Positions 28,533-32,900 of a stretch of DNA of 64,000 nucleotides are shown here, one piece after another (the stretch's first letter is position 1; each line of letters starts with the position of its first letter). This DNA is from Cyanobium sp. FGCU52 (lineage in GTDB: Bacteria; Cyanobacteriota; Cyanobacteriia; PCC-6307; Cyanobiaceae): contig JANWUS010000012.1 of NCBI GenBank assembly GCA_024958715.1, positions 1 to 64,000 on the forward strand. The letters are read 5' to 3'. Both the position numbers and the translations under genes were made by a program. The notes beneath the pieces are model-generated. The model was not told the DNA's origin. It ran no database searches and was given only the letters and a program-made list of their open reading frames with translations.

Positions 28533-29039
28533 CTAACCCCCGTGACCGAAGGGCGTGAGCTGGAAGCTGGTGCTGAGCAGACGCCCCAGGCTCAGGCCCC
28601 CCAGCACCACCACCGAGAGCACCACGGTCATCAGCAGCGGGGGTGGAACGACGCGGATGCGCACCAGATCGAGCCGGGCCAGCATCACCGCCGATCCCAG
28701 GACAAGCACGCTGGCCAGCACCGCCAGATGGAGCAGATAGAGCCCGCCGATGGTGACCATCAGCAGGGTGAGCACGAGGCTGAGCACCCGGCTGGCCGAC
28801 ATCATCGAGGAGAGCTGGTGCAGCAGCTCCAGGGGCATGGTGCAGACGGCCACCACCACCAGGGCCTGGAGGCATTCGATCGACCAGATCACCTCGGAGT
28901 AGCCCCCCATCGGGCCTGGGGTCTGCTGCAGGGAGTGCGCCCAGTGCAGCCCCTGATAGGTACTCACGACCACCAGGAGCAGCAGCATCGGCGCCTGGAG
29001 AGGCACCAGCATGATCCGCAGGAAGGAGCGCATCGGCAT
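28533..29039 (-). CDS. Conserved polytopic membrane protein
   Basis: 168 residues with four to five hydrophobic segments (IMLVPLQAPMLLLLVVVSTYQG, ECLQALVVVAVCTMP, VLSLVLTLLMVTIGGLYLLHLAVLASVLVLG, LLMTVVLSVVVLGGLSLG). Not recognised. ATG 29039 sits one base after the stop of the NIL/ferredoxin gene, so the two are almost surely co-translated; a role tied to that iron-sulfur protein is inference. Confidence 0.7.
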   Translation of the reverse strand: MPMRSFLRIMLVPLQAPMLLLLVVVSTYQGLHWAHSLQQTPGPMGGYSEVIWSIECLQALVVVAVCTMPLELLHQLSSMMSASRVLSLVLTLLMVTIGGLYLLHLAVLASVLVLGSAVMLARLDLVRIRVVPPPLLMTVVLSVVVLGGLSLGRLLSTSFQLTPFGHGG

Positions 29040-29040
29040 C

Positions 29041-29454
29041 TCAGGCGGGATCCAGCACCAGGGAGATCGCCTCCAGCGGGCAGCTGGGGATGCACTGCTC
29101 GCAGACCAGGCACCGGGGTGCCTCGAAGTGGAGCCGGGCGGTGTGCGGATCGAAGCGGAGGGCACCGCTCGGGCAGACGCTCGAGCAGATGCCGCAGTCG
29201 ATGCAGCGATCGGGATCGATGCCGATCTCGCCGGGCGTGCGGCGCAGAGCGAGACCCTGACGCTCCAGCCACAACTCGGCCGCATCGAGCTCGTCGATGT
29301 CGCCCGAGAGTTCCACCACCATGGTGCCGCTCTGGTTCGGAGCGATCTGCGCGCGCAGGATCTTGGCGGCGATGTCGAAGTCCACGGCCAGCCTGTAGGT
29401 GATCGGCTGGTGCACCGCCTCGCGGGGGAAGTGGAGGGTGAGGCGGCGTTTCAC
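29041..29454 (-). CDS. NIL domain plus 2x[4Fe-4S] ferredoxin protein
   Basis: 137 residues from GTG 29454. An N-terminal NIL domain (about 1-75; VKRRLTLHFP, PITYRLAVDFDIAAKILRAQI, GTMVVELSGD) usually binds methionine-like ligands or regulates. It is followed by two CxxCxxCxxxCP clusters: CIDCGICSSVCP and CLVCEQCIPSC. This NIL-Fe/S fusion is common in cyanobacteria, function unsettled (electron transfer or sulfur metabolism). Operon with the membrane gene downstream; divergent from the TxlA-like thioredoxin, which hints at a redox link. Confidence 0.88.
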   Translation of the reverse strand: MKRRLTLHFPREAVHQPITYRLAVDFDIAAKILRAQIAPNQSGTMVVELSGDIDELDAAELWLERQGLALRRTPGEIGIDPDRCIDCGICSSVCPSGALRFDPHTARLHFEAPRCLVCEQCIPSCPLEAISLVLDPA

Positions 29455-29579
29455 GGCCCCAGGGCAGTGATGGGAACCTAGCAAGGGCGCTCGGGGTCGC
29501 CCCGTGGCGACGGCGACCGGAACCGCGACCGGCCAGGGGCGGCTGCCAGAGTGCGGCGAGCGTCGCGCCCCTGCCGCCG

Positions 29580-30149
29580 ATGACCACGCCTGCCCCCGCC
29601 GAACCCCTGGGCCGCCGGGAGCGGATGCTGCTGGCTGCGGTGGCCGCCGTGCTGGCGGTGGCACTGTTCTGGTTCCGGGGTGGCCTCCATCCGGAGGCGC
29701 CGCTGGAGCGCCTGGCCCGCCGCTCACCCGACCTCACGACGGCGCTCGCGAATGGTCGGCCCACGGTGGTGGAGTTCTATGCCGACTGGTGCGAGGCCTG
29801 CCGTGCGATGGCACCGGCGATGGAGGCGATCGAACGGGACCACCGCGACGATCTCGACGTGGTGCTGCTGAACGTGGACAACCCGCGCTGGCAGCCCCAG
29901 CTCGAGCAGTACGGCGTGAACGGCATCCCCCAGCTCGAGTTCTTCGATGCGGCCGGCCGGGACGTGGGCCGCTCCCTCGGGGCCCGCCGGCCTGCGGAAC
30001 TGCAGGCGCTCACCACGGCCCTGCTCGAGGGCGTGGCGCTGCCGGAGCTGGCGGGGGTGGGAGCGCTGAGCGACCTGGCCGCATCGGCGGCCTCCCCCGA
30101 GCAGGGCTCAGCGACGGCGCCGGCGGTCGGTCCCCGCAGTCACGGCTGA
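29580..30149 (+). CDS. txlA: Membrane-anchored thioredoxin (TxlA/HCF164-like)
   Basis: 189 residues. N-terminal anchor (LLAAVAAVLAVALFWFRGG) places the thioredoxin domain on the lumenal/periplasmic side. Active site WCEAC in VVEFYADWCEACRAMAP, then LLNVDNPRW and the cis-proline NGIPQLEFFD. In plants and cyanobacteria this type passes reducing power to cytochrome c maturation. The C-terminal 40 residues are low-complexity. ATG 29580; thyX follows 57 bp downstream. Confidence 0.88.
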   Translation: MTTPAPAEPLGRRERMLLAAVAAVLAVALFWFRGGLHPEAPLERLARRSPDLTTALANGRPTVVEFYADWCEACRAMAPAMEAIERDHRDDLDVVLLNVDNPRWQPQLEQYGVNGIPQLEFFDAAGRDVGRSLGARRPAELQALTTALLEGVALPELAGVGALSDLAASAASPEQGSATAPAVGPRSHG

Positions 30150-30206
30150 GCGGCGGGGAGAACCGTCCACGAGGCACCAGAGTGGGCGGGTGTGCCGCCA
30201 CCACCG

Positions 30207-32294
30207 ATGGATCCCCGCTTCCGGGTCGAGCTGATCGCCGCCACCCCGAATCCCCAGCAATGCGTCTACGCCGGGATGCATCAGGACTACAGCGAGGGCT
30301 TCGTGGCCGCCGACCGCGCCGGGTGGCCCGACGAGACCCGCGCCGGTGAGATCTGCGTGAAGCGTCTGCTGGCGGGGGAGCGGGGCCACTACGGACCGCT
30401 CGAGCACGCCCAGATCGTGCTCAACGTGGGCTGGTTCCCCCATTCGGTGATGCAGCAGGCCCGCACCCATCGAGTGGGCGTGAGCTTCGATGTGCAATGT
30501 CTCGCCGGTGACACCGAGATCACCTTCCTGCATGCCGGTGGGAGCCTACGGAAGATCAAGATCGCTGAACTACACGACCTCTGGACGAACGGAGAGCGAG
30601 CGACTCGACATCGGCAGATCCGTGGCCGTCAAGGCGAAGCACCAGGAACATACCGCCGCGATTGCCGCAAGCGGCTGCAGAAGATGAAGTTACGGGTGCT
30701 GAACGAAGACACGAACGTCTTTGAAACGAGCCATCTTACGGATGTGATTTGCAGTGGGCTGCAACCGGTCTATCGGCTTACGATGGAGGACGGTCGCACT
30801 CTTGACTGCACCGCCAACCATCGGTTGCTCACGCCGGATGGCTGGCAGACCATGGGAGATGCCCTGTCCCTGAGGGTGAGAAGAGATGGCACCGTGCGCA
30901 GCTTCCGACGCACGGCGCAGGTGTTGGTGAACGGGAACGTGGCGGTTGGCAGCGGGGCCTACCGAGACCGTGGCTGGCTGCAACAACAGGTCGAATGCGG
31001 AGCGACCCCAGACGAGATGGCGGAGCGGGCTGGCTGTTCGACCACCACGATCCGGGACTGGGCCCGTCGGCATCAGATCCGCTTGGTGAAAAGCGACACG
31101 CGCTTTCGAGCGGGATTCAACCCCTGGAACCACAACCCTTCAGCTCTCTATCGGCAGCAACAATGGTTGCAGCAACAACTGGAGAACGGGCTTTGTGCCA
31201 AGGAGATGGCTGAACTTGCGGGCTGCTCCGTGGAAGCCATCAAAAAGTGGGTCTATCACTTCGGGCTGACCCTCAATAAACGCCCATTTTTCCAAAAGGG
31301 CATGCGGCCTTGGAACAAAGGGCGAGGTGGTTATCGCCTGCAGCTATCGGAAGAGTCACGCGAAGCGCGGCGTGCCCATGGCCGACAGATCACCCGTCGA
31401 GGCTCGGCATCACATTTTTGGAGAGGGGGTTCATCGTCTGAGCGCATGTTGATCGGTTCCTGGACGCGACAAATCGCTCCCCAGGTTCATCAACGCTTCG
31501 ATCACACATGCCAGCGTTGTGGATTGCGAGGAAGCGAGCAACAACTGCACGCCCACCACCTGGTGCCTGTCTATGCGGATCCAAGTCTGGGCTGCGAGAT
31601 CGAGAATCTCGTCACGCTTTGCCAAGCCTGTCACGCCTTCATTCACAAACACCACTTGGAAGCTGATTTTGCTGCGGAGTTCCGTCTGCTGAAGCCAATC
31701 CAAAACTGGCCCGTTAAGCCCCGTCCCCGGGGCCGGAAGCTCATGGCCCATCCGCTCACGGTGGTCCAAGTGGAATTTCTAGGCACTCAGATGACCTACG
31801 ACCTTGCGGTGGCGGATCCCTGGCACAATTTCGTGGCCAATGGCTTAGTGGTTCATAACTCCATGCGCTACACGGGCGATCGCATCCGCAAGGCGGCGAA
31901 CGGCGAGCTGGAGCTGGAGGAGGTGTTCTACCTGCGCCCGCTGGGCAGCTACAGCGACCGCCAGGGCAAGAAGTACAGCTACGACGCCGACCAACGGGCG
32001 ATCGACCTCGATCTGTGCTGCCGCGCGGCCGAGCGCTACCGCGACCTGCTGGATGCCGGCTTCGCCGAGGAACACGCCCGCGGCATCCTGCCGTTCGACT
32101 ACCGCCAGCACTTCGTGGTGAGCTTCAGCCTGCGCGCCTTCCTCCATTTCCTGGATCTGCGCGCCAAGCTCGACGCCCAGGAGGAGATCCGCGCCCTCTG
32201 CGATCTGATGTGGCCCCACCTGCAGGCCTGGGCCCCGGAGATCGCCGGCTGGTACGAGAAGAGCCGGCTGCACAAGGCGCGCCTGGCTCCCTGA
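30207..32294 (+). CDS. thyX: Flavin-dependent thymidylate synthase ThyX, interrupted by an intein
   Basis: Makes dTMP from dUMP with FAD and methylene-tetrahydrofolate. The frame is continuous for 695 residues, but only 241 are ThyX: residues 1-97 (HYGPLEHAQI, QQARTHRVGVSFDVQ) and 552-695 (SMRYTGDRIRK, PFDYRQHFVVSFSLRAFLHFL). Residues 98-551 are an intein. It splits the ThyX motif right before the catalytic-motif serine (Ser552), so splicing is needed for activity. The start is ATG 30207 (MDPRFRVEL); a GTG at 30192 would add five residues. It is convergent with dcd, another dTMP-pathway gene. No thyA is seen in the window. Confidence 0.96.
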   Translation: MDPRFRVELIAATPNPQQCVYAGMHQDYSEGFVAADRAGWPDETRAGEICVKRLLAGERGHYGPLEHAQIVLNVGWFPHSVMQQARTHRVGVSFDVQCLAGDTEITFLHAGGSLRKIKIAELHDLWTNGERATRHRQIRGRQGEAPGTYRRDCRKRLQKMKLRVLNEDTNVFETSHLTDVICSGLQPVYRLTMEDGRTLDCTANHRLLTPDGWQTMGDALSLRVRRDGTVRSFRRTAQVLVNGNVAVGSGAYRDRGWLQQQVECGATPDEMAERAGCSTTTIRDWARRHQIRLVKSDTRFRAGFNPWNHNPSALYRQQQWLQQQLENGLCAKEMAELAGCSVEAIKKWVYHFGLTLNKRPFFQKGMRPWNKGRGGYRLQLSEESREARRAHGRQITRRGSASHFWRGGSSSERMLIGSWTRQIAPQVHQRFDHTCQRCGLRGSEQQLHAHHLVPVYADPSLGCEIENLVTLCQACHAFIHKHHLEADFAAEFRLLKPIQNWPVKPRPRGRKLMAHPLTVVQVEFLGTQMTYDLAVADPWHNFVANGLVVHNSMRYTGDRIRKAANGELELEEVFYLRPLGSYSDRQGKKYSYDADQRAIDLDLCCRAAERYRDLLDAGFAEEHARGILPFDYRQHFVVSFSLRAFLHFLDLRAKLDAQEEIRALCDLMWPHLQAWAPEIAGWYEKSRLHKARLAP
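30498..31859 (+). mobile_element. Intein with HNH homing endonuclease in thyX
   Basis: 454 codons inserted in frame. Splicing features: Cys1 in CLAGDTEI (block A), TANH in LDCTANHRLLTPDGW (block B, 105-108), YDLAVADPWHNFVANG (block F) and the terminal VVHN (block G), with Ser+1 in ThyX. The middle carries a helix-turn-helix module repeated twice (about 159-212 and 222-276) and an HNH nuclease (338-383: CQRC, HAHHLVP, N370, CQACH). No LAGLIDADG motif. Sample lines are 52-53% GC against about 72% in flanking thyX, so recent acquisition is likely. All splicing residues look intact. Confidence 0.96.
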
Positions 32295-32306: not shown

Positions 32307-32900
32307 TCAGACCCTGGCGAGGGTCACCCGTTCGGGCTGGTGCTGGTATTTGCCGGCCCGATCCTGGTAGGTGGTCGCGCAGGGATCGCCTTCGAAGAAC
32401 AGCAGCTGGCAGATGCCTTCGCCGGCGTAGATGCGGCAGTCGGCGCCGGAGGAGTTGCTGAACTCCAGGGTGAGGTGGCCCTCCCAGCTGGCCTCGGCCG
32501 GCGTGGTGTTGACGATGATCCCCAGCCGGGCGTAGGTGCTCTTGCCGAGGCAGATCACGGTGATGTTGGCGGGCACCCGCAGCTTCTCCAGCGCCACCCC
32601 CAGGCCGTAGGAGTGGGCCGGCAGGATGAAGTACTCGCCGTCCTCATCGCGGTGCAGGGGCGCGGGCTCGAGGTTGGCGGGATTGAACCGCTTGGGGTTC
32701 ATCACCGTGCCGGGCACGTGCCTGAAAATCAGGAACTCCTTGGCCGAGAGGCGCAGGTCGTAGCCGTAGGAGGAGCAGCCATAACTCAGCACGGCCCCGG
32801 TGCGGGCCTCCGGATCCAGGTGGCGCACCAGGGTGCCCTGGAACGGCTCGATCATGCCGGCGGCGGCCTGCTCGTGGATCCAGCGGTCGTTCTTGAGCAT
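32307..32900 (-). CDS. dcd: dCTP deaminase
   Basis: Deaminates dCTP to dUTP, feeding dUMP to ThyX. Conserved YGCSSYGYDLRL, PAHSYGLGVALEKLRVP, the active-site run GKSTYARLGI and EASWEGHLTLEFSN are present. 197 residues from ATG 32900. It is convergent with thyX, 12 bp apart. There is no fused dUTPase signature, so a separate dUTPase is presumed elsewhere. Confidence 0.95.
   Translation of the reverse strand: MLKNDRWIHEQAAAGMIEPFQGTLVRHLDPEARTGAVLSYGCSSYGYDLRLSAKEFLIFRHVPGTVMNPKRFNPANLEPAPLHRDEDGEYFILPAHSYGLGVALEKLRVPANITVICLGKSTYARLGIIVNTTPAEASWEGHLTLEFSNSSGADCRIYAGEGICQLLFFEGDPCATTYQDRAGKYQHQPERVTLARV

Follow-up and report, generated by a model that had tools for sequence, protein, structure and literature searches.

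Organization of the thyX locus

The window, i.e., the whole stretch of DNA analysed, comprises 64,000 nucleotides and carries on its forward strand the thyX gene of Cyanobium sp. FGCU52, which encodes the flavin-dependent thymidylate synthase, a frame of 695 codons with an ATG start (30207-32291; stop codon 32292-32294) and with an in-frame GTG also present at 30192. The earlier note described one 695-residue frame with ThyX only in its first 97 and last 144 residues, and the translation agrees. Pfam Thy1 matches the product in two pieces, with profile positions 1-85 falling in the N-extein (30207..30497, + strand) and positions 85-191 in the C-extein (31860..32291, + strand), and TIGR02170 scores 165 bits (cut-off 87.9). 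Without the insert, the 97 residues, which end in RTHRVGVSFDVQ, and the following 144 form a 241-residue protein with the ThyX fold and motif (RTHRVGVSFDVQ-SMRY). The first residue of the C-extein is the Ser+1 nucleophile and doubles as the conserved serine that ends the ThyX motif HR-x8-S. The upstream thioredoxin-like gene (29580..30146, + strand; Pfam Thioredoxin) is an ordinary chromosomal neighbour, and downstream a dCTP deaminase gene (32307..32900, - strand; Pfam DCD) lies on the strand opposite to thyX.

The 454-residue insert, from Cys1 to Asn454 (30498..31859, + strand), is in frame and exactly absent from homologues. In all 60 intein-free thyX loci of Cyanobiaceae that were read, consisting of the 20 best-scoring ones and 40 hand-picked over many genus groups, the site is uninterrupted, SFDVQ (or variants) running straight into S-x-R-Y-T-G; no intein-free orthologue aligned through the region. 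The joined exteins align with those of an intein-free genome of the same genus (G243, L013) over 726 nt without gaps at 91.7% DNA identity. The unjoined DNA matches G243 from 29014 to 30496 and then from 31860 on past the dCTP deaminase gene; base 30497 is a CAA/CAG difference, and the insert is thus absent from the syntenic G243 to within one base.

Base composition sets the insert apart as well. GC is 58.7% in the intein, 68.5% in its ThyX exteins, and 71.4% in the rest of the window once thyX is left out; each of 1198 other segments of 1362 bp in the window is richer in GC (minimum 65.9%). Likewise, GC3 is 0.66 in the intein versus 0.92 in the exteins. The drop in GC reported earlier is therefore real, but the figure of about 53% given for it was too low.

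Splicing domain

The splicing blocks A, B, F, and G are present at the two ends of the insert. Cys1, the block A nucleophile (30498..30500, + strand), lies in a region matched by TIGR01445 (intein_Nterm) above its cut-off, block B reads TANH (intein residues 105-108; 30810..30821, + strand), and the C-terminal splicing region TYDL...WHNFVANGLVVHN (31794..31859, + strand), which holds blocks F and G, is matched by TIGR01443 (intein_Cterm) above its cut-off. Pfam Intein_splicing scores 37.1 bits on the whole protein against a cut-off of 35.8. The CLAGDTEI start, TANH, the VVHN end, and Ser+1 named in the earlier note are all read in the translation of 30498-31859 and its adjoining codon, so that Cys1 and the terminal His-Asn pair do exist in the real sequence. 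That the splicing residues are all intact was borne out by an alignment of 31 inteins whose insertion point, site a, precedes the last Ser of the ThyX motif (site b lies before the first Ser, five codons upstream, and site c between both). C1, T105, H108, D435, H443, N444, H453, N454, and S+1 are invariant in 31/31, while N107 is found in 29 and differs in two.

The best structural-database match to the intein is the Ssp DnaB intein (1mi8; E 8e-11 overall), which resembles it in the N-terminal splicing blocks and weakly in the C-terminal ones, but differs in host protein and site. A PF14890 search of the FGCU52 genome returned no other intein, the thyX position being the sole match and there under the cut-off. 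From these residues, the insert is predicted to splice itself out as protein.

Splicing is likely to matter to the cell. ThyX is unlikely to function with 454 extra residues inside its signature motif, and none of the 12 carrier genomes, five of them at least 90% complete, had a Pfam ThyA match, compared with 9 of 14 control genomes. Hence, the cell probably depends on splicing to make dTMP, and unspliced ThyX would likely be lethal, given that the 12 carriers have no ThyA by Pfam. The host protein is seemingly the cell's only thymidylate synthase.

HNH nuclease and helix-turn-helix units

The nuclease core (intein residues 338-383; 31509..31646, + strand) consists of CQRC, HAHHLVP, N370, CQACH, and H383, just as the earlier note described it, and is recognized by Pfam HNH (E 2e-7, 31.5 bits, cut-off 21.4). 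All nine tallied HNH residues are present in FGCU52 (C338, C341, H353, H354, N370, C375, C378, H379, and H383), among them the zinc-type CxxC pairs of HNH homing endonucleases, and the domain is predicted to cleave DNA. The view that HNH here replaces the more common LAGLIDADG holds for the presence of HNH, but HNH is the usual class in this family of ThyX inteins, occurring in 23 of the 31 site-a inteins, of which the other eight are nuclease-free.

Ahead of the HNH domain are two tandem helix-turn-helix units, which were absent from the earlier note. The first, with a PWN tail (intein residues 155-216; 30960..31145, + strand), matches Pfam MerR below the cut-off (E 2e-5) and MerR_1 just above it (E 2e-4); the second, with a PWNKG tail (residues 218-275; 31149..31322, + strand), was recognized by its similarity to the first and by its predicted helices. 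Each has about 60 residues, and they are 46% identical to one another (E 8e-11). An AlphaFold model of the intein, based on nine aligned sequences, is poor overall (mean pLDDT 44.6) and usable only where two three-helix units are visible (pLDDT block means 62-77). A single profile match to PHROG 8446, phage proteins described simply as "HNH endonuclease", spans the helix-turn-helix and HNH stretch (residues 153-381, E 6e-26).

Distribution among cyanobacteria

Among 300 Cyanobiaceae genomes, 238 match the ThyX query at E ≤ 0.001, which a hand count divides into 168 with strong ThyX (E ≤ 1e-48) and 70 with weak matches only (E ≥ 2.5e-6). Those 70 perhaps hold a more distant ThyX type. By hand count, the intein is present in ten of these 168 genomes (FGCU52, G103, G292, G268, G059, G221, G074, G182, G105, and G044), a clearly patchy distribution. 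A scan of GTDB contigs adds CZS25K and a Lake Pavin MAG as carriers and also finds copies in Argonema antarcticum (53%) and, with a broken frame, in a member of the Leptolyngbyaceae; L033 and L035-L038 were left out as duplicates of G103, G292, G059, G268, and G074. Because the near relatives bear the names Cyanobium, Microcystis elabens FACHB-917, and Synechococcus UW140, the term "picocyanobacterial" fits.

Across 386 genomes of the phylum there are 22 matches at E ≤ 1e-10, of which 21, including FGCU52, lie in ThyX and one is a separate HNH protein outside ThyX (G584, L063). The latter was left out before the counts, as was L041 (Leptolyngbyaceae CSU_1_4), in which the ThyX intein frame is split into two ORFs and is either broken or affected by a sequencing error. 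Twenty of the 21 are at site a, with that of G377 residing in a classical-motif ThyX, and the intein of G430 is at site b; G430 and G377, with another site or another ThyX type, were left out of the residue tallies. The G430 frame (L062, ORF from 1216, 551 aa) holds a 307-aa ThyX intein with a different-looking insert that may resemble an HNH type found in phage introns.

The 31 aligned site-a inteins range from 167 to 456 aa with their catalytic residues kept, and eight of the 21 cyanobacterial ThyX inteins are mini-inteins without HNH (167-242 aa). Of the 23 inteins with HNH, 21, including that of FGCU52, retain all nine residues of the nuclease; the G292 intein has C378L, and the G044 intein has H354Q and lacks the second helix-turn-helix unit. 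The capacity to splice thus appears to be retained even where the nuclease is altered or lost, as the splicing residues are invariant in all 31 inteins and HNH is intact in 21 of 23 and missing from others. The inteins of Argonema antarcticum, G420, and G384, from different lineages and 53-62% identical to that of FGCU52, share with it the site, the splicing blocks, both helix-turn-helix units, and HNH, whereas those of G392, G455, G532, and G453 have one helix-turn-helix unit and the eight mini-inteins are nuclease-free. The full 450-aa HNH intein of G420 (L043) and the 191-aa mini-intein of G616 (L058) lie in sister ThyX exteins of the same genus group.

Mobility and alternative explanations

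We consider it very probable that thyX of FGCU52 carries an intact, full-length homing intein. The gene would be translated into a 695-residue precursor, in which Cys1, the block B Thr/His, the block F Asp/His, the penultimate His, Asn454, and Ser+1 would run standard protein splicing, yielding a free 454-residue intein and the 241-residue ThyX. Before or after excision, the part inserted between the halves of the splicing fold would act as a site-specific HNH nuclease, with the two tandem helix-turn-helix units reading the DNA around the thyX motif and the HNH core cutting intein-free alleles. Repair off the intein-bearing allele would then copy the intein together with a short flank.

The closest extein, that of G243 (95% identical), is intein-free, and the closest intein, that of G103 (91%), belongs to another genus group. 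For several carrier pairs dS is lower in the intein than in the exteins (0.45 versus 0.74 for FGCU52-G103, 0.44 versus 0.80 for G221-G074, 0.34 versus 0.82 for G268-Pavin, and also lower for G103-CZS25K); for FGCU52-G292 it is 0.49 in the intein versus 0.45 in the exteins, and the median over 66 carrier pairs is 1.24 for the intein and 0.89 for the exteins. With extein data, AU tests did not reject the intein pairings (p 0.064 for G221+G074 and p 0.124 for FGCU52+G103), and with intein data the test against CZS25K+G292 gave p 0.034. Since the AU tests do not reject it and the median dS is higher in the intein, vertical descent followed by loss accounts for part of the pattern.

The flanks were compared between the 12 carriers and the 60 empty genes. 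The His88 codon (30468..30470, + strand) is CAT in 10/12 carriers and 14/60 empty genes (Fisher p 1.5e-4 uncorrected), the largest carrier/empty difference of 238 third positions (p about 0.04 when corrected for 238 tests). On the 40 fresh empty genes alone, p was 0.0019 for His88, 0.049 for Gln97, and 0.18 for Asp95; of these three flank marks His88 alone held well, and none lies downstream. The ten codons just upstream of the site have the top carrier/empty third-position excess of 229 windows of codons and the ten downstream rank 162. A short upstream co-conversion tract fits these marks, in a small sample of related genomes; against it, carriers are richer in A/T at third positions overall (0.21 versus 0.13 in empties). 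Together, the signals of transfer between lineages and of a co-converted flank are suggestive only; the intein was probably acquired horizontally.

An intein that still splices but homes no more, inherited vertically with its HNH domain idle or decaying, would agree with the damaged HNH of G044 and G292, with the eight inteins that lack HNH, and with the AU tests, which leave co-inheritance unrejected for two of three pairings. We regard this as unlikely, while granting it appreciable weight, as FGCU52 itself retains all nine HNH residues and both helix-turn-helix units, the base composition of the intein is foreign to thyX, and the closest ThyX relative has no intein. Moreover, the intein coding sequence appears to be under constraint, since the median dN/dS between carriers is 0.14 for the intein compared with 0.10 for the exteins.

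Introns are a frequent vehicle of HNH genes, and the insert might in principle be removed as RNA or be a plain HNH gene insertion that broke thyX. The frame is open through 695 codons, protein-splicing blocks invariant over 31 inteins occupy both ends, and no ThyA was found as a replacement for ThyX, all of which makes such an origin highly improbable. The FGCU52 genome consists of 87 contigs, which could raise the suspicion of an assembly artefact or contamination; the probability of this is practically negligible, as thyX lies within a 168-kb contig, its neighbours are in the same order as in G243, and the same insert occurs in independent genomes. The homing intein that we favour is a clean and complete example, with intact nuclease and splicing residues and exact empty alleles in near relatives.

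Known ThyX inteins and phage carriage

Liu and Yang (2004) is reportedly connected with the Ter ThyX intein of Trichodesmium erythraeum, and Dalgaard (1997) is said to concern an HNH intein. A HEN-deleted mini-intein of Ter ThyX splices to about 100% in Escherichia coli according to PMC3620165; like that of FGCU52, it is an intein in a cyanobacterial ThyX. TdS (ThyX) inteins have been reported in mycobacteriophages in PMC5050341, and those of Colt and Norm share with FGCU52 the ThyX host, HNH, and a splicing domain over the Pfam cut-off, but are about 32-34% identical and smaller and, as read here, sit ahead of the first Ser of the motif and not of the last. With Trichodesmium and mycobacteriophages already known to have ThyX inteins, that of FGCU52 belongs to a known kind. 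As PMC8966425 describes accessory domains of a helix-turn-helix-like type in inteins that have nested endonucleases, precedents exist in these sources for the host gene, the nuclease class, and the accessory domains. Tandem duplication of the helix-turn-helix unit and variation in its copy number were not found described in the intein literature consulted, and a literature search for inteins in Cyanobium gave no title on the FGCU52 thyX intein.

A tblastn search of 50,697 phage records gave 18 matches, 15 of them in mycobacteriophages; the annotation reads ThyX in many cases and HNH endonuclease in some. As read here, the ThyX inteins of Colt, Norm, and Rctr197k are at site b, and that of Caudoviricetes vir335 (L075:1877-3361) is at site c, between the two Ser. 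A plasmid search returned no match to the intein. IMG/VR yielded no intein relative with the single-protein query and six viral contigs with an alignment query, all in ThyX-like frames judging by their flanks, with L117, L119, L120, and L121 at site a and L118 and L122 at site b. The intein of L117:2695-4791 (IMGVR_UViG_3300041964_000063) is a full-length helix-turn-helix/HNH intein of 447 aa (48%), and its thyX adjoins DNA polymerase and phage-type RuvC resolvase genes as well as an EAL/GGDEF protein. A terminase was found in three of the six viral records (those of L119, L120, and L121) and not in those of L117, L118, and L122, and an HK97 capsid in none of the six.

Phage carriage of related thyX inteins is thus supported. 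No donor was identified, as the viral inteins found are at most 57% identical to that of FGCU52, in the best segment. One site spans HNH-bearing, damaged, HNH-free, and empty states and extends to viral contigs, and therefore the homing cycle and phage carriage are testable in one gene. A bolder and rather improbable proposal is that the thyX homing inteins of cyanobacteria and phages form a single pool, which has a modular DNA-reading part (zero, one, or two helix-turn-helix units) and has struck the ThyX signature motif at three neighbouring points, and that in cells without ThyA splicing could also switch dTMP supply.

Some intein-bearing phage ThyX proteins are annotated as HNH endonuclease (NC_054716.1, NC_041901.1, NC_021346.1, and KX853510.1). 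On a 212-kb viral contig, L118:2746-4671 encodes a ThyX of the classical motif that is interrupted by a related intein ahead of the first Ser, and a Dda-like helicase is among the adjoining frames.
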